Source: Bacteroidales bacterium (GTDB taxonomy: Bacteria; Bacteroidota; Bacteroidia; Bacteroidales; UBA932). Taken from it: a DNA stretch of 64,000 nucleotides. This document shows, one piece after another, positions 832 through 58,396 of the stretch. Numbering within the stretch: the stretch's first letter is position 1; each line of letters begins with the position of its first letter. Location of the stretch: NCBI GenBank assembly GCA_017482565.1, contig JAFUMO010000055.1, positions 107,082-171,081 on the forward strand. Reading direction: 5' to 3'. The position numbers and the translations under genes were made by a program. The notes under the pieces are model-generated. The model was not told the DNA's origin. It made no database searches and worked only from the letters and a program-made list of their open reading frames with translations.

Positions 832-1449
832 TTATAAATCGCTTATCCTCACTCTTACACTTATCCCTATTACGTAATCTACCAATTCTTTAGTCTTCTC
901 CGGAATTTTAAATATTACTCTCCCCTCCTCTTTCAGTGCCTGCTCCAACGCAAACATCTTATCGGGGTTAATAGTGTTAAATACTGTAATATTAGGGAAA
1001 TGAATCTCCAGTTCCAATAGCTCTCCAGCGCTTGATACAACAGAATAGATGGTAAAGGAAATCTGATCTACGGGGATTGTTTTTTTCCTCTCATCATCGT
1101 CATAGTATACTACACCTCCAGATATACCTTGCTTCATTTGCTCTATCTCTTGAATTGTAAAAACACTTCTAAATGCATCATAAAAAACCTTCATATTATC
1201 CGGCTCAACACCAGGCTTTACACTTCCTGGATACACATTAGGAGACCCATTTTTATAAGTCCATTTTTTTATATCAAATAGCCTATTCTGAGTATTTTTT
1301 AAAAGGACTCTCTTTTGAGCAATATCCACAACCTCATATTCATAAAAATCAGTCTTTATGACTGTTTTCCCTCTATAATAATTAACCTCTTGAGCGCTAA
1401 TAGTCAATGAATACACTAATAGCATTACTGTCAAAATAATATATTTCAT
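832..1449 (-). CDS. Hypothetical exported protein, 205 aa
   Basis: No family is recognised with certainty. The product starts with a typical signal peptide (hydrophobic MLLVYSLTISAQ, cleavage expected after Ala-Gln near residue 20). The rest is a soluble, mixed alpha/beta-looking domain rich in Tyr, Val, Asp and Lys, without transmembrane segments. It is therefore probably periplasmic or surface exposed. The ATG overlaps the stop of a 35-codon upstream ORF in an ATGA arrangement, which suggests translational coupling. Base composition is clearly more A+T rich than the flanking mrp and rsmA genes, in common with the rest of the 832-4806 island, which suggests horizontal acquisition. Function unknown. 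Confidence 0.7.
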   Translation of the reverse strand: MKYIILTVMLLVYSLTISAQEVNYYRGKTVIKTDFYEYEVVDIAQKRVLLKNTQNRLFDIKKWTYKNGSPNVYPGSVKPGVEPDNMKVFYDAFRSVFTIQEIEQMKQGISGGVVYYDDDERKKTIPVDQISFTIYSVVSSAGELLELEIHFPNITVFNTINPDKMFALEQALKEEGRVIFKIPEKTKELVDYVIGISVRVRISDL

Positions 1450-1553
1450 AAAACATTTAATTTATCGCTGATAAAAATCGTACTCTGTAAACGCAATCTG
1501 TTGCTGAGTGTCAGATAAATTTCGTACTTTTGCCATGAGTTATTTTTGCTCAT
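1446..1553 (-). CDS. Possible 35-aa leader ORF coupled to the downstream exported protein
   Basis: This ORF runs from ATG (1553-1551) to TGA (1448-1446). The stop overlaps the downstream start codon as ATGA. The peptide begins MSKNNSWQKY and ends SDKLNVL; it has no signal peptide and matches no family I know. A GGAGG sequence lies immediately upstream, but only two bases separate it from the ATG, which is shorter than ideal, and Shine-Dalgarno use is rare in this phylum. The GGAGG lies in one arm of a hairpin (1554-1591). Whether it is translated is inference. Confidence 0.35.
   Translation of the reverse strand: MSKNNSWQKYEIYLTLSNRLRLQSTIFISDKLNVL
1501..1532 (+). promoter_or_regulatory. Candidate Bacteroidota-type promoter facing right
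   Basis: TTG at 1501-1503, a 21-base gap, then TACTTTTG at 1525-1532 fit the TTTG/TAnnTTTG consensus of the phylum's main sigma factor, with a weak -33 element. No long plus-strand gene follows. A hairpin with a T-rich tail lies at 1688-1719, so the pair could bound a short untranslated RNA. Alternatively this is a chance match within the antisense leader ORF. Confidence 0.3.
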
Positions 1554-1591
1554 TTCCTCCGAATTTCACTTTTCCACGGTGTTCGGAGGAA
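1554..1591 (-). promoter_or_regulatory. Hairpin that could mask the leader ORF ribosome site
   Basis: A perfect 10-bp inverted repeat pairs 1554-1563 with 1582-1591. Read on the minus strand the 3' arm is TTCGGAGGAA directly before ATG 1553, and the 5' arm is its exact complement. Folding would hide the purine-rich start region of the leader ORF. A regulatory role is inference from position. The repeat is strand-symmetric, so it could equally belong to a plus-strand transcript. Confidence 0.3.
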
Positions 1592-1687
1592 TTCTTATTT
1601 CCTCTTGCTAAGATACAAAATATTTATCACATTGACAATCAATTGATTATATTTTTAAGCCTATTTCACGACTGGCCCTAGTATATC

Positions 1688-1719
1688 GGGAGGCTGGACT
1701 TTTTTCTTGTCAGCCTCCC
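1688..1719 (+). terminator. Candidate intrinsic terminator (plus strand)
   Basis: GGGAGGCTG at 1688-1696 pairs perfectly with CAGCCTCCC at 1711-1719, and ATTTTGTATTT follows. It is GC-rich in an AT-rich stretch and lies about 180 bases after the candidate promoter at 1501-1532. The rest of 1554-1785 holds no other gene that I can support. Confidence 0.45.
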
Positions 1720-1785
1720 ATTTTGTATTTAAACCGCTTCTAATCCCCCTTTCTTTATCATTAGCTATGAATAATACAGAAATAG

Positions 1786-2100
1786 CTAAAAGAGAGCCTG
1801 ATACATAATGAATGTAATGACACTATTATTATGAGTTACCCTTAAAGTATTATCACCCAATTTTACTACAACAGTTTTAAGGTTAGGCCCTCTATCCTCT
1901 TCAATAAAGAATTTTCCAAAACCGTTTGCAATCATATCTCGAAAATTCTTGATATTATCACCTACTCGTATTGTTCCATAGAATAAATAATCAGAAGAAT
2001 CTGTATAAAACTCTTGAACGACTCCATCTGTAAATTTCATATATAATTTTGTATCACCGTTACTATGGTAATACTTTTGTTATAGATTTCATATATTCCA
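1786..2100 (-). pseudogene. Truncated and frameshifted relative of the 2350-2859 exported protein
   Basis: The open part (1786-2040) matches the C-terminal half of the intact protein at 2350-2859. Both share FTDG, VQEFYTDSSDYLFYG, VGDNI, NGFG and LRVTH at the same spacing. The similarity continues upstream of the apparent ATG in the same frame (KYYHSNGDTKLYM against YKYVSNNKELYM) until stop codons. It then continues briefly in another frame near 2070-2090. The N-terminal half with its signal peptide is missing. This is therefore a decayed duplicate, although the 84-codon remnant could still be translated. Confidence 0.7.
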
Positions 2101-2109
2101 CTTTCATTT

Positions 2110-2304
2110 CTATATTGATGCCATATAGTGAATGGAGATAATGATATCATTCTTATACAACACATAAAAATCATCATCTCCAAGTTTAATATGAAACATC
2201 TTACTTGTATCATCTAAAACTTCTTCCATATAAACACGACCAAATCCAAGCGTTGTCAATTCTACAAACTGCTCTACCGAGAGCTGCTCCGGACGGAGCT
2301 CCAT
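2110..2304 (-). pseudogene. Chimeric fragment: rsmA 3' end fused to the tail of the small exported-protein family
   Basis: The 64-codon frame is a join. Its first 17 residues (MELRPEQLSVEQFVELT) equal the end of RsmA (encoded at 4807-5625). The rest (GFGR..., IKLGDD, KNDIIISI) aligns with the last 45 residues of the 2350-2859 protein (GFGRFRIEED, IKLGDE, QNDVIIFI). No signal peptide remains. It is best explained as debris from duplication or recombination between the rsmA end and copies of the small gene. Confidence 0.7.
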
Positions 2305-2342
2305 CAGGCGGGCGAGTGGTGCAGGAGTACTCTAGGGAGTTA
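2252..2342. repeat. Degenerate copy of the rsmA 3' end
   Basis: Bases 2252-2342 align with 4823-4913 inside rsmA. The stretch 2261-2312 is identical to 4832-4883 over 52 bp, and similarity then fades. Copies lie in the same orientation 2.57 kb apart and bracket the M23 peptidase gene and the intact small gene, so they are the footprint of a tandem duplication or an insertion beside rsmA. Confidence 0.85.
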
Positions 2343-2349
2343 AGCTCTT

Positions 2350-2859
2350 CTAAAAAATTGTAACAAATTTTATAAATATTATAACATCATTCTGATGAGT
2401 TACCCTAAGAGTTTCGTCGCCTAATTTAATCTCTAATGTCTTTAAAACAGAGCCTTTATCTTCCTCGATCCTAAATCTGCCAAAACCATTGACGAGCATC
2501 TCTCTAACTTTCTGAATATTATCTCCTACTTTAAAAGTTCCATAGAATAAATAATCAGAAGAATCAGTGTAAAATTCTTGTACTATTCCATCTGTAAACA
2601 TCATATATAGCTCTTTATTATTGGAAACATACTTGTAAAATTCATCGGTCCCAACAAATTGTTCATCCGGATATTCATGAATTTCATATTGCGTAGGCTC
2701 TCCTAATGCTGCTATCACATCTGTTTTGGTTACAGGAGTTTTAGATAAATCCAAATTGTTAATCGCATTTGGATATCCAGATAAATATTGTCCACTACAA
2801 ACAATCGATGCTATAGGGAATATTAATAAAGTTATAATAAGTGATCTAAATGTTTTCAT
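2350..2859 (-). CDS. Small exported protein of the island, 169 aa (possible partner of the M23 protein)
   Basis: The protein starts with a signal peptide (LIITLLIFPIASIVCSG). Cys21 could be lipid-modified, but Val precedes it, so the lipobox is poor. The mature part contains VTKTDVIAALGEPTQYE, which resembles the start of SmpA/BamE-like folds, followed by beta-rich sequence ending IIFIKFVTIF. It begins 13 bases after the M23 peptidase stop on the same strand, so the two are probably one operon. Two broken relatives lie just downstream. A secreted peptidase followed by several small exported paralogues is the layout expected of immunity or inhibitor genes, but that is inference. The family was not recognised. 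Confidence 0.7.
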   Translation of the reverse strand: MKTFRSLIITLLIFPIASIVCSGQYLSGYPNAINNLDLSKTPVTKTDVIAALGEPTQYEIHEYPDEQFVGTDEFYKYVSNNKELYMMFTDGIVQEFYTDSSDYLFYGTFKVGDNIQKVREMLVNGFGRFRIEEDKGSVLKTLEIKLGDETLRVTHQNDVIIFIKFVTIF

Positions 2860-2872
2860 ATTAATGAGTCGT

Positions 2873-4639
2873 TTATTTGTTAATACAATTGAGTAACGTT
2901 ATATTTACATCAGTAGTTGTAATGATTGCATTAAGATATTCTATTGGGTTTGTAGCTACATTATTCTTAGATAAGTTAAGATGTAAATGTGGTACACTTT
3001 TACTAGCGTTGCCAGTATAACCAGCATAACCAATCACCTCTCCCTGATAGACCTTATCCCCAGCTTTAAATTGCACACCTGTTCTTGGGTTAATGGCAAT
3101 AGGTCCATTATCTACACCGTGACCTTGCAAATGCCAATATCCTATTCTAATATTATCTCCACCAATTACACTATTAACATAAATTCTATTTCCAGCGCCA
3201 TTTTTATCTCCACTATATCCTTCAGGATAGACCCAAGTAGAATCGCCACTTGCATCTAGACCACCAAACACTTTATTTTCCTGGCTAGACACAACTCTCT
3301 CAACAGACCCTGTAAACATTGAAAAAATTGGTGTACCTAAAGGTGTGAAGAGATCTATACCATTGTGAACACGAATATTTCCATCCGTTCCTACTCTTGT
3401 GGGTCCATAAGTTGCTGCAGCTATCATGCTACCTTTTGGCGGAGCCAATTTCATTACTCTTAAAGGATTTGATTTGTTATTGATTGCATCAATACATAAA
3501 TCAATTATTCTGAAATTAGCTTCAGCAGAAACATCTTTCTCTACTTGAAATGAAAAACTGCTCGGTTTTCCAGCAAAATCACCACTCCAATTATAAAACT
3601 GATACTCCCATACTGGTGATGCAACAATTGATGCAGATGAACCCGCAGCATACACCCCTCCACCTGTAACAGTACCAAATCCATCGCTTAGCATACTTAC
3701 CGTAGCAGATACAGTATATGTTTGGCCTGAGTTATAATTTTCCCCAGATGAACTTCCTCCGCCACCGCCTCCACCACCATTCTGGTCCTTATATAAGTCA
3801 GATCCAGTTGGACCACCACCTCCACTTTCCTCTTCTTCCATTGATGGACCATCTTTTGGGCCTGTGGGTGTTGTTGGAGTAACTATTATCGGATTCAATT
3901 CACCTCCATCAAGGCTATTATCATCGTCTCCATCTCCACCATCATCTGCTCCTCCGGCTTTAGTTTGCGGCGATGAGTATACTGCAAGATATATAACATC
4001 ATTATTATCTTTTATTTCATCAACGCTTAATATTTTCCCTTTAAGCAACCTTCCTTTTTGGAAATGTTCAACCCTTAGAAATTCACCATCTAAAGTAGAA
4101 TAAATAATCACCCCGCTATAATTGGCTTTTCTTAAGAATGTACAGTTATCGTTAATAAGGGTTCCACTATATAAAGGGAACATACTGGCTAAATACTCTA
4201 TTTTCTCGTTGGTTGAAAAGTTTTCAACAATTATATAATATGATTTAACTTGAGTTAATGAATCCAGTGCATTCTGTCTGTTGACACTGTGAGTTACAGA
4301 GCAATGTATTTTTCCTCGTTTAAAGTCAATGGGAATCTGCCTTAATAAAACTTGTTCTTTCTCTAAATAAAGTTGGTCCTCATATTCCCATTTTAGTAAT
4401 GAATCTACAATAAATTCGCCAGTAGCGCCGCCACTTTTGGTACTTTGCAACAAATTATAGTCAGAGATATACACAGGCAGATATGAAAAGATATCTACGT
4501 TCACTTTTCTTTCTGAGAGAATAGATTCTTGCTCCTCAATTATAAATTTTTCACATGAAACAACCGTTGCCAAGACAAAGCAACAAGTCAGTACTACAGA
4601 AAGTACTTTTAACGGATAAAGTTTTTTAAGGTATCTCAT
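2873..4639 (-). CDS. M23-family peptidase lipoprotein with InlB-like repeat domain
   Basis: The N-terminus is a lipoprotein signal (LATVVSC, Cys29). Residues 30-225 form an unrecognised region. About residues 226-305 are a Gly/Ser/Asp/Pro-rich linker with a run of nine glycines. A domain resembling divergent InlB B-repeats (VSATVSM, GTVTGGGVY, FYNWSGDF) follows to about 375. The C-terminal domain is M23/LytM type: HNGIDL gives the first zinc His and Asp, YWHLQ follows, and PHLHLNL gives the HxH motif. All catalytic residues are present, so peptidoglycan (or other glycyl-bond) cleavage is likely. Placement is probably periplasmic or at the cell surface. A well-formed promoter lies upstream, and a small exported protein gene follows 13 bases downstream. 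The DNA is AT-rich compared with rsmA. Confidence 0.88.
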   Translation of the reverse strand: MRYLKKLYPLKVLSVVLTCCFVLATVVSCEKFIIEEQESILSERKVNVDIFSYLPVYISDYNLLQSTKSGGATGEFIVDSLLKWEYEDQLYLEKEQVLLRQIPIDFKRGKIHCSVTHSVNRQNALDSLTQVKSYYIIVENFSTNEKIEYLASMFPLYSGTLINDNCTFLRKANYSGVIIYSTLDGEFLRVEHFQKGRLLKGKILSVDEIKDNNDVIYLAVYSSPQTKAGGADDGGDGDDDNSLDGGELNPIIVTPTTPTGPKDGPSMEEEESGGGGPTGSDLYKDQNGGGGGGGGSSSGENYNSGQTYTVSATVSMLSDGFGTVTGGGVYAAGSSASIVASPVWEYQFYNWSGDFAGKPSSFSFQVEKDVSAEANFRIIDLCIDAINNKSNPLRVMKLAPPKGSMIAAATYGPTRVGTDGNIRVHNGIDLFTPLGTPIFSMFTGSVERVVSSQENKVFGGLDASGDSTWVYPEGYSGDKNGAGNRIYVNSVIGGDNIRIGYWHLQGHGVDNGPIAINPRTGVQFKAGDKVYQGEVIGYAGYTGNASKSVPHLHLNLSKNNVATNPIEYLNAIITTTDVNITLLNCINK

Positions 4640-34636: not shown

Positions 34637-37600
34637 TTATAAGTTTGCAAAGATAGACATTTTCATTTTAAACACAACATTATATCCTTTTTCTATTGAA
34701 TCAATCCCTTTGATTTTCAATATCAATTTTTTGTTGTGCTCACTTACCTGCATGTTACTGTATGATGAATTGATATAATTCAGAATACCGGCAAAGAGCG
34801 GTGAACTGTAATAAGATGACTGTTGGTTACCAACAAAATAAACCAGCATCATGTTATTTTTCATCACTATCCTCTCAAATCCCAGTTCCAGGGCCTCCCA
34901 CCTCAGCCTCACCACATATGTGAGCTGTATGAGCTGGTCCGGCAGCTCTCCAAAACGGTCCCTGAGGTCATCTGTGAACTTTACAAGTACCTCTTCAGAT
35001 GTTATTGCATCCAGTTCCTTGTACAGGCGTATCTTTTCGGATGTAAGGGATATGTAGCTGTCGGGAATGAGAAGTTCCATATCTGTGTCTATGGTACAAT
35101 CAGTCACATATTTCTCGGGCTCCCTGCTTCCCTGTACAGCTTCCTGGAACATCTCCATGTTGCCGCTGTCCTGCTTTATCTCCATGAAGGCCTCTGAGAG
35201 GATTTTCTGGTATGTCTCAAATCCCATATCTGCAATGAAGCCGCTCTGTTCCCCTCCAAGGAGGTTTCCCGCACCCCTAATATCAAGATCCTGCATTGCT
35301 ATATTGAATCCGCTTCCGAGATCTGAGAAAGCTTCAATTGCCCTCAGCCTGCGCCTTGCATCATCTGTTATCGCCGCCATTGAAGGGACAATAAGATAAC
35401 AGAATGCCTTCTGGTTTGAACGCCCTACCCTTCCACGCAACTGGTGGAGGTCACTCAGCCCGAAGTTCTGAGCCTGGTTTATTATGATTGTATTGGCATT
35501 TGGTATGTCTATGCCATTCTCCACAATGGTTGTAGCTATGAGCACATCATAATCGCCGGCCATGAATTCCAGTATCTTCCCTTCCAGTTCTTTGGGCTCC
35601 ATCTTCCCGTGCCCGACACAAGTCTTCACACCGGGGCATATCCTCCTTATTATGTCCTCAACTGCAAGGATATCCTCTACCTTGTTGTGTACGAAATATA
35701 CCTGTCCTCCCCTCTCAATTTCATACGTTATGGCCTCCCTAACCAGCTCCTCATTAAAATCAATGATCTCTGTCTGTACGGGAAGCCTGTTTGGAGGTGG
35801 TGTATTTATGATTGAAAGATCCCTTGCTCCCAATAGCGAGAACTGGAGGGTTCTTGGTATTGGTGTTGCCGTTAGGGTTAATGTATCAACCGAGAGCTTC
35901 AGCTGCCTGAGCTTTTCTTTTGCCGCCACACCAAACTTCTGCTCCTCATCAATTATAAGGAGTCCAAGATCCTTGAACTGCATCTCCTTGTTCAGGAGCC
36001 TGTGTGTACCAATTATTATATCTGTCTTGCCTGTCTTGAGGTTTTCTGCTGTCTGTTTTATCTCCTTTGTTGTCTTGAGCCTGCTTATATATTCTATGGT
36101 GCATGGAAAATCCTTCAGCCTTTTCTTGAATGTCTTGTAATGCTGTAGGGCAAGTATGGTTGTAGGGACAAGCAGTGCAACCTGTTTTCCGTCAACCGCT
36201 GCCTTGAATGCTGCCCTTACTGCAATCTCTGTCTTGCCGAATCCCACATCCCCGCAAACCAGACGGTCCATAGGAAAATCCCTCTCCATATCCTCCTTAA
36301 CAGCCTGCGTTGTCTTAAGCTGGTCCGGGGTATCCTCGTACATAAATGATGCCTCAAGCTCATGCTGGAGATAACTGTCGGGAGAAAAGGCAAAACCCTT
36401 GGCCTGCCTCCTCTCTGCATAAAGCTTTATAAGATCCTTTGCTATATCCTTTACCTTGTTCTTTGTCTGGGTCTTTAGCTTTTCCCAAGCACCTGTGCCA
36501 AGCTTATAGATTTTTGGAGGAGCACCCTCCTTGCTCTTGTATCTGGATATCCTGTGTATGCCGTGGATTGAGACAAAAATCACATCATTATCCTTATATA
36601 TCAGCTTAATAGCCTCCTGCACCTTTCCGTTCATGTTTGTCTTTACCAGACCTCCAAACACTCCCACACCATGATCAATATGTACAACATAGTCACCTAT
36701 CTGGAACGCACTCAGTTCATTGAGGGTGAGCCTCTCGCTCCTGGGAACCTCCCTCTTTATCTTAACTCTGTGATAACGGTCAAAAATCTGGTGGTCTGTA
36801 TAAAGGCATGTCCTTGCTGCATTATCCACAAATCCTGTATGGATGGAACAGTCAAGTTCGGTAAACTCAGGTACTTTTGTCACATCATCCCCGCTGTTAT
36901 GGGCAAATATGCTCCTGAGCCTCTCAAACTGCTTTCCGTTTTCACTACATATATATATGGTATACCCTTCAGATATTTTCCTGTTGATATCTGTGAGCAG
37001 GAGGTCAAAATTCTTGTTGAATGAGGGCTGCGGAGAAATGCTGAACTCCACCTGCACCTGCCCATCCATATGGAAATCATTGAAAGTTACTATCCTCTCC
37101 TGCATGATGTTTCCAAGCACCTGGGAATACTGTTCCCCCTGCATCACACTTATGTCATTTATCCATACATTTGTCTTTCCCTTTCCTGCAAATTCAAGCA
37201 CATCAACCAGCTCCTCCTCCATAACTTCCCCCTTATCATAGATGTTTGGGAAAATCTCCACCTCTTGAAGTTCCCTGAATGATCTTTGCGTATTTGTGTC
37301 AAATTCCCTTATGCTCTCCACCTCATTGCCAAAGAAATCTATCCTGTACGGTTTGTCTGAAGAGAAAGAGAACATATCTATAATGCTGCCCCTCAAGGCA
37401 AACTGTCCCGGTTCTCCTACAAAATCCACCTTTTCAAAATTATATTCCTGCAATGTCTCCTTAATGAATTCATGGGATACCATCTCCCCTTTCCTTATCT
37501 TGAGTATATTGCTTTTCAACACCCTGCTGTTGGGAATTTTCTCATAAACTGAAGCAGGATACGCTACAAGTATTATCTTTTTTAGAGTAGATTCGCCATC

Positions 37601-37951
37601 AAGAAAATTACGGAGGGCACTTATAGCAGCACTCCTCTGTACCTTTTGGGAAGAATCCTTTATTGTACTAACCTTATTGGATACTGAATTTGATGAGCAT
37701 GGAAAAAAGAAGACACAATCCTCATCCACCAGATTGTACAGATCATTGGAAAAGAACTGCGCCTCCTCCTTATTGTCCATTATAACCAGATTTATACCTC
37801 CGGGCATAGAAGAGGCTAGTACAAATGATTTGGACGAACCATAAAGCCCCTTTATTGCAATAGAATTGTTTTTTTTATTATTTAAAACTTCAACAAGTTC
37901 TTTTACAGCACTTTGTGAAGAGAAAACATTAAGCAGCACATTATTTTCCAT
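34637..37951 (-). CDS. mfd: Transcription-repair coupling factor Mfd
   Basis: Mfd removes RNA polymerase stalled at DNA lesions and recruits UvrA. The start at 37951 (MENNVLLNVF) gives 1104 residues; a TTG at 37963 is excluded because the -7 box overlaps it. UvrB-like domains come first. The RNA-polymerase interaction (CarD-like) region has IGDYVVHIDHGVGVFGG. The RecG-like translocase contains Walker A GDVGFGKTEIAVRAA, DEEQKFG (DEEQ box), the TATPIPRTL motif and QLRGRVGRSNQKAFCYL. The C-terminal TRCF domain is present. It is transcribed away from ruvB across the AT-rich gap. Confidence 0.98.
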   Translation of the reverse strand: MENNVLLNVFSSQSAVKELVEVLNNKKNNSIAIKGLYGSSKSFVLASSMPGGINLVIMDNKEEAQFFSNDLYNLVDEDCVFFFPCSSNSVSNKVSTIKDSSQKVQRSAAISALRNFLDGESTLKKIILVAYPASVYEKIPNSRVLKSNILKIRKGEMVSHEFIKETLQEYNFEKVDFVGEPGQFALRGSIIDMFSFSSDKPYRIDFFGNEVESIREFDTNTQRSFRELQEVEIFPNIYDKGEVMEEELVDVLEFAGKGKTNVWINDISVMQGEQYSQVLGNIMQERIVTFNDFHMDGQVQVEFSISPQPSFNKNFDLLLTDINRKISEGYTIYICSENGKQFERLRSIFAHNSGDDVTKVPEFTELDCSIHTGFVDNAARTCLYTDHQIFDRYHRVKIKREVPRSERLTLNELSAFQIGDYVVHIDHGVGVFGGLVKTNMNGKVQEAIKLIYKDNDVIFVSIHGIHRISRYKSKEGAPPKIYKLGTGAWEKLKTQTKNKVKDIAKDLIKLYAERRQAKGFAFSPDSYLQHELEASFMYEDTPDQLKTTQAVKEDMERDFPMDRLVCGDVGFGKTEIAVRAAFKAAVDGKQVALLVPTTILALQHYKTFKKRLKDFPCTIEYISRLKTTKEIKQTAENLKTGKTDIIIGTHRLLNKEMQFKDLGLLIIDEEQKFGVAAKEKLRQLKLSVDTLTLTATPIPRTLQFSLLGARDLSIINTPPPNRLPVQTEIIDFNEELVREAITYEIERGGQVYFVHNKVEDILAVEDIIRRICPGVKTCVGHGKMEPKELEGKILEFMAGDYDVLIATTIVENGIDIPNANTIIINQAQNFGLSDLHQLRGRVGRSNQKAFCYLIVPSMAAITDDARRRLRAIEAFSDLGSGFNIAMQDLDIRGAGNLLGGEQSGFIADMGFETYQKILSEAFMEIKQDSGNMEMFQEAVQGSREPEKYVTDCTIDTDMELLIPDSYISLTSEKIRLYKELDAITSEEVLVKFTDDLRDRFGELPDQLIQLTYVVRLRWEALELGFERIVMKNNMMLVYFVGNQQSSYYSSPLFAGILNYINSSYSNMQVSEHNKKLILKIKGIDSIEKGYNVVFKMKMSIFANL

Positions 37952-37960
37952 AATCAGCTG

Positions 37961-37993
37961 CAAAATTAAATTAAGTTTTTAACAATACACCAA
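37961..37993 (-). promoter_or_regulatory. Promoter of mfd
   Basis: On the minus strand TTG (37993-37991), a 22-base gap and TAATTTTG (37968-37961). The -33 element is weak. It lies directly beside the first DnaA-box-like 9-mer at 38000. Confidence 0.5.
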
Positions 37994-37997
37994 TAAA

Positions 37998-38310
37998 CAT
38001 GTTGAAAACCCGGTTTTATATATTGATAACTCTTTTGATAACTTTTAAGAAATATTGGATTGTTTATTGGAATTTTTGTACAGATATATTTTTTTCTTCT
38101 CCTGCAATCAACTGCAACCTTATTTTTAAAAATATTTTCTACCAGCTTTATCAACATTGTAAATATGTTGATAATAGATGTCAAGTTTTTCAACATACGT
38201 TGATAAAATGTTATATATATTTAATAATCAATTAATTATAAATATTTTATTTTTTAATATCTTTAAAAGTGATTAACAATAGTGTTGAAAAATAAAATTA
38301 TCAACATATT
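37998..38310. other. oriC: Candidate chromosomal replication origin (cluster of DnaA-box-like 9-mers)
   Basis: The 405-bp gap between divergent mfd and ruvB is very AT-rich and holds no gene. Six exact copies of TGTTGAWAA or its complement TTWTCAACA lie at 38000-38008, 38148-38156, 38166-38174, 38187-38195, 38283-38291 and 38298-38306. One-mismatch copies are at 38021-38029, 38033-38041 and 38198-38206. Several face each other as inverted pairs. TTATCAACA differs from the classic DnaA box TTATCCACA at one base. A pure A/T stretch at 38205-38272 could be the unwinding element. The motif cluster is seen directly; origin function is inference. A parS-like site 15 kb away agrees with it. dnaA is not in this window. 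Confidence 0.55.
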
Positions 38311-38368
38311 AACATAATATAAATAAACATCATTAAAATTCTTTTTATAAAAAGATTATATTTGTGTT

Positions 38369-39397
38369 ATGAATAGTTTTGAAAAAAATTTTGATCCAAG
38401 GAAAGCAGGTGTCCAGTCAGAAGGGGATATTGAAGGGGTTATAAGGCCAAAGGATTTTAGTGATTTTTCAGGTCAGGAAAAGATTATGAAAAATCTGAAG
38501 GTTTTTGTGAAGGCAGCAAGGCAGAGGGGAGAATCACTTGACCATGTCCTTTTCCATGGCCCTCCTGGATTGGGGAAGACCACACTTGCCAATATTATAG
38601 CAAATGAGCTTGGGGTATCAATGAAGATAACATCAGGTCCAATATTGGACAAGCCCGGTGACCTTGCCGGTCTGCTTACAAGCCTTGATGAAGGTGATGT
38701 GCTCTTTATTGATGAGATACACAGGCTTTCTCCTGTAGTTGAGGAATACCTTTATTCGGCTATGGAGGATTACAGGATTGATATCATGCTCGACAAGGGT
38801 CCTGGAGCAAGATCTGTACAGATATCATTGAATCCATTCACTCTTGTGGGTGCAACAACAAGGAGCGGATTGCTCACATCCCCATTAAGGGCTAGATTTG
38901 GTATCCAGTGCCATCTGGAGTATTATGATTCAAAGGTTCTCCAAAAAATAGTAGGAAGGAGTGCAAGGATACTTGATATGGAGATAGACAGTGAGGCAGC
39001 ACTTGAAATTGCATGCAGGAGCAGGGGAACACCACGTATAGCAAATTCTCTCCTCAGGAGGGTAAGGGATTTTGCCCAGGTTGAAGGGAACGGAAAAATA
39101 GATCTTCCCATAACGAGATATGCCCTTGATGCCCTTAATATAGACAAGAAGGGGCTTGACCTTATGGACAACAAGATACTTACCACTATAATAAGCAAGT
39201 TCAAGGGAGGTCCTGTAGGGGTGAATACAATAGCAACAGCTGTAGGTGAGGATCCGGGAACACTTGAGGAGGTTTATGAACCTTTCCTTATAAAGGAGGG
39301 ATTCATAAACAGGACACCAAGGGGCAGGGAAGTTACAGAACTTGCCTACAGGCATCTTGGAATGGACAGATATATGCCTGAAGATACTTTATTCTGA
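38369..39397 (+). CDS. ruvB: Holliday junction branch-migration helicase RuvB
   Basis: RuvB is the AAA+ motor that drives branch migration with RuvA (encoded here at 57806-58396). The 342 residues have Walker [13 protein letters not shown], Walker [12 protein letters not shown], sensor 1 [13 protein letters not shown] and the arginine-finger region [10 protein letters not shown]. The winged helix ends [13 protein letters not shown] perfect -7 box TATATTTG occupies 38357-38364, only four bases before the ATG, so its mRNA may be leaderless; no -33 box is obvious. Confidence 0.98.
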
Positions 39398-51834: not shown

Positions 51835-53844
51835 ATGGAAAGGGACTTTGATGTAATTGTAGTTGGAGCAGGTCATGCCGGATGTGAGGCAGCGGCTGCA
51901 GCTGCAAAGATGGGCAAGAAGACACTTCTTGTTACGATGGACATGAACAAGATAGCCCAGATGTCTTGCAACCCGGCAATAGGTGGAATTGCAAAGGGCC
52001 AGATTGTAAGGGAAATTGACGCATTGGGCGGGTGCTCCGCTCTTGTCACAGATGCAAGCACCCTTCAGTTCAGGATGCTAAACCGTTCCAAGGGGCCGGC
52101 CATGTGGAGCCCGAGGGCACAGTGTGACAGGGTCTATTATTCATTCAACTGGCGTTATATTCTGGAAAATACTCAAAATCTTTCTGTTTGGCAAGATGTA
52201 GTAAATTCATTAATTATTGAGAATGAGGAGGTTAAAGGTGTTTTAACCGTTTTGGGTGCAAAATTTACAGCCTCCGCCACCATCATTACTGCAGGAACGT
52301 TTCTAAACGGCAGATTATTTATAGGAAAAGAGACAACTGAAGGAGGCAGGGTAGGGGAGCTTTCATCATACGGTGTAACCGAGCAGCTTGAATCCTTCGG
52401 ACTTGAGAGCGGCAGGATGAAGACAGGCACACCACCAAGGATTGATGCAAGGTCCGTTGATTTCTCCAGACTGGAGAGACAGCCGGGAGATTCGTCACCT
52501 GCAAGATTCTCATTCCTGAATGTTCCTTCACCAATCCAGAACGGGGTTGATCAGATGAGCTGCTTTATGGTGCATACCAATTCAACCGTTCATGAGATAC
52601 TTAAGGGAGGTTTCAAGGATTCACCGTTGTTCTCAGGAAAGATTCATGGCATTGGCCCACGATACTGTCCGAGCATAGAGGACAAGCTTAAGACTTTTGA
52701 AGGGAAAGATTCGCACCAGCTCTTCCTTGAGCCTGAGGGATGGCATACATACGAATATTACCTTCAGGGATTCTCATCATCGCTCCCTTTTAATGTGCAG
52801 ATGGATGCCCTCAGAAATATCAAGGGGCTTGAGAAGGTAGAGATCTTCCGCCCTGCATACGCAGTGGAGTACGATTACTTCCCGCCAGTTCAGCTCAAGC
52901 ATACATTGGAGTGCAAGGCCCTGATGAATCTATACCTTGCCGGACAGGTTAATGGAACAACCGGTTATGAAGAAGCAGCAGCGCAAGGTTTGATGGCAGG
53001 TATCAATGCCGCCCTTGCATGTGACGGCAAAGATCCTTTTATCCTGAGAAGAGACCAGGCATATATAGGTGTACTGATTGATGACCTTGTAACCAAAGGA
53101 GTGGATGAGCCTTACAGAATGTTCACCTCAAGGGCAGAGTATAGAATATTGTTGAGGCAGGATAATGCAGACTTGAGGCTTACCAACGCTGGGTATGAGA
53201 TTGGTCTTGTTTCTGATGACAGGCTGAGGCTTGTTGAGCAGAAATACTCTTCCGTAGGTAAAATAGAGGAGATCTTCAACAGTGTATCTGCTGACCCTAT
53301 ACAGATAAATCCTTTCCTTGAGGGGGCAGGATCTTCTCCGCTTCCACAGAAGAGAAGGCTTGCAGACTTGCTCTCAAGGCCCCAGATCTCAATAAAGTCT
53401 TTGTTGAAGAATATTCCTCAGGAAGGGGAAATAATGCAACATGTAGTAGAGGTATCATCTAATAGTGGACTCACAAATTCCTTCAATAATTCAGGCCCTG
53501 CATCAGTAGGTGATAATTTTATTGAGCTCCCATATAAAACCCATACAAATGGCTTTACTCCTGAGGCTGCACAAATTCTTCCCGATGAAGTTTTGGAAAG
53601 TGTGGAGATAGCAGTAAAATACAAGGGGTATATTGAGAGGGAGCAGAGAATTGCTGATAAGATTCTAAGACTGGAGAATGTATCTATTCCAGAGAATTTT
53701 GATTTCCTTAAGGTAACTTCCCTGTCAATAGAGAGTAGGCAGAAGTTGATGAAACATAGGCCTACAACTATAGCCCAGGCTTCAAGGATTCCTGGGGTAT
53801 CTCCAGCAGATGTATCCGTTCTTCTCGTCTATTTTGGCAGATAA
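51835..53844 (+). CDS. mnmG: tRNA uridine-5-carboxymethylaminomethyl(34) synthesis enzyme MnmG
   Basis: MnmG (GidA) works with MnmE to modify U34 of several tRNAs, using FAD and NADH. FAD motif [45 protein letters not shown] and [17 protein letters not shown] are intact. At 669 residues it is some 40 longer than common MnmG. The extra sequence is an Asn/Ser-rich stretch (about residues 540-580, [17 protein letters not shown]) between the [11 protein letters not shown] helix and the IAVKYKGYI block. A parS-like site and a strong terminator follow immediately. Confidence 0.96.
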
Positions 53845-53851
53845 TTTTAAA

Positions 53852-53867
53852 TGTTCCACGTGGAACA
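53852..53867. promoter_or_regulatory. parS: parS-like centromere site (ParB/Spo0J binding)
   Basis: TGTTCCACGTGGAACA is a perfect 16-bp palindrome that fits the widely conserved chromosomal parS consensus TGTTNCACGTGNAACA. It lies eight bases after mnmG in non-coding DNA. Such sites bind ParB near the replication origin; the parAB genes are not in this window. The match is direct; binding is inferred from the known consensus. Confidence 0.8.
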
Positions 53868-57805: not shown

Positions 57806-58396
57806 CTACAGCCTTTTTAAAGAGAATTTTATGAGCTCTTCCAAAGAACTGTCGGGATGCTCCTTGTAAACCGCCTTGAGGGCCTTGTCTGCGGCTGCCT
57901 TTGCAAATCCGAGCATCACAAGGGCAGAGAGGGCCTCCTCCATATTTGAGGATTTTGTTTCCGGTGTCAGGAGTGCTGCGGTATTGTCTTCCCCGCCTTT
58001 GGCAATCTTGTCCTTGAGGTCTATTATCACCCTCTGGGCGGTCTTGAGGCCTATCCCCTTCACGCTCTTTATCCTGTTCACATCTCCGCTTATGATGGCG
58101 GTCTTGAGCTCAAGGCAGCTCAGGGATGAGAGCATCATGCGTGCGGTGTTGGGGCCAATGCCGTTCACTTCTATGAGCATCCTGAAGATGTTGCGCTCCT
58201 CTCTGGTGGCAAAGCCGTACCACATCTCCACATCTTCCCTCAGGTGGTGGTGGATATATAGCATCACCTCATGGAGCCCCTGGATGTCCGTAAATGTCTG
58301 GAGGGATATCTGCAGTTCATACCCTATGCCGTTGTTCTCTATTGTTGCAGTTGTGGGGGCCAGTTCTACAAGTTCCCCCTTGATGTAGCTGTACAT
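57806..58396 (-). CDS. ruvA: Holliday junction DNA helicase subunit RuvA
   Basis: RuvA binds the four-way junction and loads RuvB, whose gene is 19 kb away, so ruvA and ruvB are not in one operon. The 196 residues start MYSYIKGELVELAP (OB fold). The double helix-hairpin-helix part has VNGIGPNTARMML and VKGIGLKTAQRVIIDLKDKI. The flexible linker leads to the RuvB-binding domain (LVMLGFAKAAADKAL). Confidence 0.97.
   Translation of the reverse strand: MYSYIKGELVELAPTTATIENNGIGYELQISLQTFTDIQGLHEVMLYIHHHLREDVEMWYGFATREERNIFRMLIEVNGIGPNTARMMLSSLSCLELKTAIISGDVNRIKSVKGIGLKTAQRVIIDLKDKIAKGGEDNTAALLTPETKSSNMEEALSALVMLGFAKAAADKALKAVYKEHPDSSLEELIKFSLKRL

Follow-up and report, generated by a model that had tools for sequence, protein, structure and literature searches.

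The 405-bp intergenic gap between mfd and ruvB is, as judged from its sequence and that of its relatives, very probably the oriC, or chromosomal origin of replication, of this Bacteroidales bacterium. The gap lies in the window, the whole stretch of 64,000 nucleotides that was analysed, and has a GC content of 18.8% compared to 45.5% for the window. An earlier note on this DNA had put forward the same reading, which is supported by a cluster of DnaA-box-like sites, a GC-skew minimum, the skew split by strand, the weakest duplex of the contig, a neighbouring parS-like site and conservation in relatives. The divergent transcription that the note described on both sides of the gap was also found, mfd being on the minus and ruvB on the plus strand, both with NCBIfam matches (Table 1). 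An Rfam search over 37800-38500 (E up to 1) gave no match to an RNA element.

Table 1. Features of the candidate origin and its surroundings, in window coordinates.
Feature	Position	Strand	Remarks
mfd, transcription-repair coupling factor	34637..37963	-	left flank; NCBIfam TIGR00580 above cut-off
Candidate oriC, mfd-ruvB intergenic gap	37964..38368	none	405 bp, 18.8% GC
DnaA-box-like TTTTCAACA	38000..38008	-	exact
Two one-mismatch boxes	38021..38041	-	TTATCAATA at 38021-38029 and TTATCAAAA at 38033-38041, 12 bp apart
DnaA-box-like TTATCAACA	38148..38156	+	exact; contains contig GC-skew minimum, 38155
DnaA-box-like TTATCAACA	38166..38174	-	exact; inverted relative to 38148 box
DnaA-box-like TTTTCAACA	38187..38195	+	exact
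One-mismatch box TTATCAACG	38198..38206	-	
Candidate DNA unwinding element	38203..38262	none	least stable 60-mer of the 171-kb contig, nearest-neighbour energy
DnaA-box-like TTTTCAACA	38283..38291	-	exact; ACA end toward candidate unwinding element
DnaA-box-like TTATCAACA	38298..38306	+	exact; first half of doublet
Second half of doublet	38307..38314	+	weaker; TATTAACA here, consensus of relatives TATCAACA
ruvB, Holliday junction helicase	38369..39397	+	right flank; NCBIfam NF000868 above cut-off
mnmG (gidA)	51835..53844	+	
Perfect parS-like palindrome TGTTCCACGTGGAACA	53852..53867	none	sole match in the genome at up to one mismatch

The source genome (G000) is a draft of 2,099,584 bases in 70 contigs, 89.45% complete, with ruvB on the 171-kb contig C47. 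The number of contigs and the completeness suggest a metagenome assembly. Six exact copies of the 9-mer TTWTCAACA and three with one mismatch had been reported as a cluster, and all nine indeed fall within 307 bp of the gap; a fourth one-mismatch site, at 37976 on the plus strand, lies outside this span. Genome-wide the exact 9-mer occurs 58 times. The note had named a similar density elsewhere as a ground for doubt, but while the gap holds six copies, no other 500 bp of the draft genome holds more than two, even when TTWTCCACA is counted alongside TTWTCAACA. TTWTCCACA, the E. coli-type box, has 77 genomic occurrences, all outside the gap. The Poisson chance of at least six exact sites in 405 bp at the mean density of the genome is approximately 2.7e-15, a value that ignores the A/T-richness of the gap; this is covered by dinucleotide shuffles of the gap itself, which contained a mean of 0.06 and never more than 2 exact sites in 5,000 shuffles. 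A unique cluster of DnaA-box-like sites is one of the features expected of an oriC, and these candidate boxes form such a cluster. Adjoining the mfd-side box, two copies of TTGATAACT stand 12 bp apart at 38020-38041, and relatives are rich in the similar 9-mer AGTTATCAA, which 19 of 83 loci contain where shuffles predict 1.05. The pair could be weak DnaA sites or the site of another factor.

The stretch from 38205 to 38272 had been described as pure A/T, which proved incorrect: it has five G/C among its 68 bases (counted by eye), corresponding to 93% A+T, and the longest pure A/T run in the gap is 31 bases (38230-38260). The least stable 60-mer of the contig sits between the central box group and the box at 38283. 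On predicted stability, the gap hence contains the easily melted A/T-rich element beside the boxes that is another feature of an oriC. In a search for DnaA-trios, modelled on PMC8287927, four boxes had at least three NAN trios within 16 bp, an outcome that a sequence of this composition gives by chance at 56% of boxes.

A GC-skew minimum was expected at an origin. The cumulative minimum of the whole 171-kb contig lies at C47:145236, in the gap and within a box (window position 38155), and a corresponding minimum was found on a complete chromosome of the same genus (G062; 2,229,011 bp), from which 20 stretches of 20 kb (18%) were sampled. In G062, 19 of the 20 stretches are consistent with one origin (about 0.67 Mb) and with a terminus somewhere in 1.77-1.95 Mb. 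The antipode of the mfd-ruvB gap is 1.786 Mb, near which the sign of the skew flips back. To mark the terminus by its dif site, no usable sequence from Bacteroidetes was found in the text available of PMC3025954. Within 660-700 kb the minimum is at 671,968, about 15 bp from the start of the gap (about 671,983). The stretch at 220-240 kb has the wrong sign (+0.083), which weighs against the oriC reading. In another genome of the family (G008), the minimum over 178 kb of contig C2 is at 110,902, inside ruvB and about 320 bp from the gap. The weakness of the skew, the distribution of the own genome over 70 contigs and the sampling of the relatives likewise count against an origin here.

The skew also bears on a DnaA-titrating or nucleotide-switching locus (datA- or DARS-like) near the origin, which would tune initiation while replication starts elsewhere. 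Boxes alone cannot separate such a locus from an oriC, and the cluster in the gap does have no dnaA next to it. However, a datA-like cluster would be expected away from the skew minimum, whereas the minimum lies in the gap itself on the own contig and about 15 bp off in G062. Moreover, the weakest duplex of the contig is inside the gap and the draft genome has no second cluster of exact boxes, with the proviso that the draft, at 89% completeness, may be short of about a tenth of the genome. We therefore consider a datA-like locus very unlikely.

Since divergent genes can cause a local change in skew, third-codon skew (GC3) was split by gene direction on C47, in gene sense and using mechanically called ORFs of at least 100 aa. 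Genes leaving the gap had a GC3 skew of +0.217 on the right (12 genes) and +0.101 on the left (64 genes), and genes approaching it -0.088 on the right (11 genes) and +0.011 on the left (59 genes). GC3 skew thus differs by side of the gap, so that gene direction alone is insufficient as an explanation. Noncoding skew was -0.047 on the left, where it was -0.004 within 60 kb, and +0.066 on the right. DnaA binding to the gap is a prediction and skew near divergent genes is partly transcriptional, which leaves room for another regulator binding TTWTCAACA-like sites beside a skew change that comes merely from the divergent genes. This we regard as extremely improbable, because plus-strand genes change from +0.011 on the left to +0.217 on the right of the gap and because the sign change spans hundreds of kilobases in the samples of G062.

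The comparison of the mfd-ruvB gap in related genomes, proposed in the earlier note, revealed box enrichment upstream of ruvB in much of the family. From a larger group, 99 family genomes were sampled evenly. A search for ruvB (E <= 1e-50) succeeded in 83 of them, and at all 83 loci 450 bp upstream of ruvB were read by coordinates. In total, these contained 130 TTWTCAACA, compared to a shuffle mean of 3.5 (maximum 8, 50 rounds) and 7 for the reversed pattern, as well as 24 TTWTCCACA, compared to a mean of 1.6 (maximum 5) and none for the reversed pattern. At least one TTWTCAACA was present in 52 of the 83 genomes and at least two in 39, while 31 had none. When 9-mers were ranked by over-representation with no prior motif, TTATCAACA came first (44 of 83 loci, 0.9 expected). 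All eight sampled genomes of the genus had at least one TTWTCMACA in 500 bp and seven had at least two; the single box of G119 weighs against the oriC reading. Aligning the gaps of these eight genomes and of RGIG7222 gave a mean column identity of 48%, and 10 of the 27 invariant columns fall in the doublet TTATCAACA-TATCAACA near ruvB. Bacteroidales bacterium RGIG7222, from buffalo caecum, has the closest RuvB (87% identical) among the best 80 of 590 relatives.

At 26 of the 83 family loci, no exact TTWTCMACA was found in the 450 bp upstream of ruvB; like the 31 loci with no exact TTWTCAACA, these weigh against the oriC reading. Those loci contained 36 one-mismatch sites, compared to 23.7 in shuffles (sd 3.9, maximum 31, 20 rounds), so weak an excess that most of them truly have no cluster. 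They include L138, L153, L185, L187 and L208. The first two retain a divergent mfd, which again weighs against an origin at this position. Possible reasons are a relocated origin or ruvB at the 26 loci, or a different box.

In 23 of 28 genomes from other families of the order, the 1,200 bp upstream of ruvB contained no TTWTCAACA; the other five had one or two and none had three. These 28 come from the best 30 of 59 matching genomes, the remaining two being the own genome and G008. Among the best 80 of 590 RuvB relatives, nine had at least one TTWTCAACA upstream of ruvB (L040 and L041 four each, L046 six, L051 five, L060 three, L054 and L116 two each, L055 and L085 one each) and 71 had none, including six whose upstream sequence is shorter than 1,200 bp. 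The family set and this set overlap (L051 is G092 and L054 is G110), so that their counts are not additive.

Seven relatives (L046, L051, L054, L060, L090, L151 and L163) have mfd on the ruvB strand, the left side of the candidate origin being rearranged. In all seven mfd lies downstream of ruvB. Six of them still have boxes upstream of ruvB; L090 has one TTATCCACA alone left there. The retention of boxes at ruvB despite a relocated mfd indicates that the cluster exists independently of the mfd promoter. This argues against the gap serving as a divergent promoter through which DnaA regulates the two repair genes, without origin function, as do the chromosome-scale skew and the parS-like neighbour, both of which such a promoter would leave unexplained. 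By its position the gap should nevertheless hold both promoters, and it has nine sigma-70-type promoter-like sites (shuffle mean 4.9, sd 2.5). A promoter region and nothing more is, on balance, highly improbable. Neither DnaA titration nor an autoregulated repair promoter, the alternatives raised in the note, is needed to explain what the sequence contains, and either may be an additional role of the site.

Immediately 5' of the ruvB ATG lies TATATTTG (38357-38364), and the 9-mer TATATTTGT is found in 31 of the 83 family regions upstream of ruvB (shuffle expectation 1.75). The -7 promoter element of Bacteroidetes is TAnnTTTG. As TATATTTG resembles this element, the ruvB message would be nearly leaderless.

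A parS close to the site, in an organism that has ParB, is a further feature expected of an oriC. The genome encodes ParB on contig C69, and a parS-like palindrome starts 8 bp past the stop codon of mnmG, 15.5 kb from the gap; mnmG itself is 13.5 kb away from the gap. In E. coli, mnmG (gidA) directly adjoins oriC. Using the 16-mer TGTTNCACGTGNAACA with up to one mismatch, we searched 22 family genomes, 18 of them chosen by hand. A match was found in all 22, many of the matches carrying one mismatch, and the reversed pattern matched in five of the 22. In 20 of the 22 genomes at least one match shares a contig with ruvB, at a distance of 5.3 to 17.4 kb, and in G085 and G103 the match is on a different contig; G062, G008 and G144 each have one extra match elsewhere. 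The site is on the opposite side of ruvB in six of the 20 (G092, G074, G098, G141, G080 and G061), and in G074 it is near ruvB though no box is found at ruvB. In Bacteroides sp. Marseille-P3684 (G158), one parS-like site lies about 59 kb from ruvB, and the reversed-pattern control also gave one match. On the far side of the palindrome, ruvA is located at 57806-58396 of the window, about 18 kb from ruvB. The order mdh, mnmG-parS, ruvA, glyS is repeated in G062 and likewise in G008, in which mdh was not found.

Outside the family, we analysed the complete chromosome of Alistipes sp. dk3624 (NZ_CP045651.1). Here mnmG is closely followed by two perfect parS at 1,829.5 kb, ruvB is at about 1,814 kb, and no TTWTCAACA was found within 1,200 bp upstream of ruvB. 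In 20 sampled stretches (13%), the skew changes from negative to positive at 1.82-1.84 Mb and reverts at 0.1-0.3 Mb; the 1.1-Mb stretch (+0.017) deviates from this pattern. Within 1.78-1.88 Mb the minimum is at 1,838,149, about 24 kb from ruvB, which weighs against the oriC reading. The densest window of near-boxes starts at 1,836,841 but, with a single exact box (TTTTCCACA), does not suffice to place the origin. The distance between the minimum and ruvB suggests that the exact spot of the origin shifts inside a conserved ruvB/mnmG-parS neighbourhood.

Adjacency to dnaA is common for an oriC and not a defining feature. The gap does not have it, which weighs against the oriC reading: dnaA is on contig C34, separate from the ruvB contig. 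The dnaA neighbourhood was considered as the origin and rejected, as C34:50001-70000 contains no exact TTWTCMACA. With dnaA at about 59.2-60.7 kb, the sites on C34 are at 4417, 24643, 27318, 91960 and 106799. An oriC far from dnaA is common in Bacteroidetes (PMC4755523). Similarly, among 12 mouse-gut strains, two of them Bacteroidetes, whose origins were placed by parS and skew with supporting coverage, the origin was not systematically at dnaA (PMC10197239). The two Bacteroidetes, Bacteroides caecimuris and Muribaculum intestinale, resemble our case in having parS nearby; the accessible part of that report gives no box sequence or flanking genes for comparison. The predicted oriC of Prevotella intermedia OMA14 chromosome I, also from the Bacteroidales, is like the gap a box cluster at a GC-skew transition with dnaA distant. 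Unlike the gap, it was located via E. coli boxes with one mismatch, and flanking mfd or ruvB are not named in the text available (PMC4755523). Two reports count against a phylum-wide rule: Blattabacterium Bge has neither DnaA boxes nor dnaA (PMC2768785), and in Melioribacter, from the wider Bacteroidetes/Chlorobi group, the origin is between dnaA and dnaN (PMC3534657).

As in the gap, the oriC of E. coli has DnaA boxes beside an A/T-rich unwinding element (PMC5742627), whereas its box is TTATCCACA. The unwinding module of Bacillus subtilis (boxes and DnaA-trios) shares with the gap a box doublet and an A/T-rich flank (PMC8287927); it differs in that the gap is not at dnaA and has trios indistinguishable from chance. 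The 9-mer of the gap is known from unrelated phyla: TT(T/A)TCAACA is the DnaA-box consensus of mollicutes (PMC3322544), and one TTATCAACA box was predicted in the linear chromosome of Cyanothece 51142 (PMC4674748). In mollicutes the motifs are single ones in or near dnaN, and the consensus has been doubted for phytoplasmas (PMC3322544).

The DnaA encoded in this genome (471 aa) matches solved DnaA structures. Its recognition helix reads GGKDHATV, compared to GGRDHTTV in the best solved match, 8btg, which we take to be B. subtilis DnaA; the E. coli motif is DHTTV. Contacts of E. coli DnaA with its box include D433, H434 and T435, and the T435M variant is binding-defective (PMC7561715, PMC5742627). 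A survey of the order gave a DnaA-domain match in 29 of 31 genomes and 30 loci in all, two of which (both HATV) come from G013. HATV was found at 24 loci (at two of them preceded by N rather than D), HSTV at one and HTTV at one, and four were not read by the helix pattern. The change from DHTTV to DHATV may explain the TTWTCAACA box, as far as sequence comparison goes. The HSTV locus belongs to G008, a genome of the same family that has two TTWTCAACA boxes nonetheless, so that the link between helix and box is not strict. More broadly, the Bacteroidales initiators might be a distinct specificity class, in which the step from DHTTV to DHATV (E. coli T435 to A) accompanies that from TTWTCCACA to TTWTCAACA, with an oriC that hopped at least once between nearby spots in the conserved ruvB/mnmG-parS neighbourhood and sits directly at ruvB in much of the family. 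This combined proposal is possible, if somewhat doubtful, and we offer it tentatively.

If the gap acts as oriC, DnaA would bind the TTWTCAACA boxes and assemble into an oligomer, which would melt the A/T-rich stretch around 38203-38262. The replicative helicase would then be loaded and two forks would depart, one through mfd and one through ruvB, while ParB, acting at the parS-like site (53852), would segregate the origin region once copied.

Neither an mfd-ruvB origin nor TTWTCAACA as a box of Bacteroidetes was found in the literature searched, which included few subscription papers. The motif itself is not new, having been published as the mollicute DnaA box, and an oriC away from dnaA has already been stated for Bacteroidetes (PMC4755523). 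What appears new, within that literature, is the location of the probable oriC and the box for this lineage. A replication origin as such is a commonplace, essential site; interest here attaches to where it lies and to the motif of the starter protein in this group. In Bacteroidales, origins are difficult to locate: dnaA does not point to them and, in the family, a box other than that of E. coli prevails. The TTWTCAACA box together with the ruvB marker, in much of the family, and the mnmG-parS marker would offer a better start point for estimating growth rate from coverage and for genome rotation. The pairing of DnaA helix and box is, in addition, a directly testable case of initiator specificity.

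Elsewhere in the window, positions 1001-3000 form a low-GC stretch (32.5%, compared to the window mean of 45.5%) that is possibly foreign DNA.
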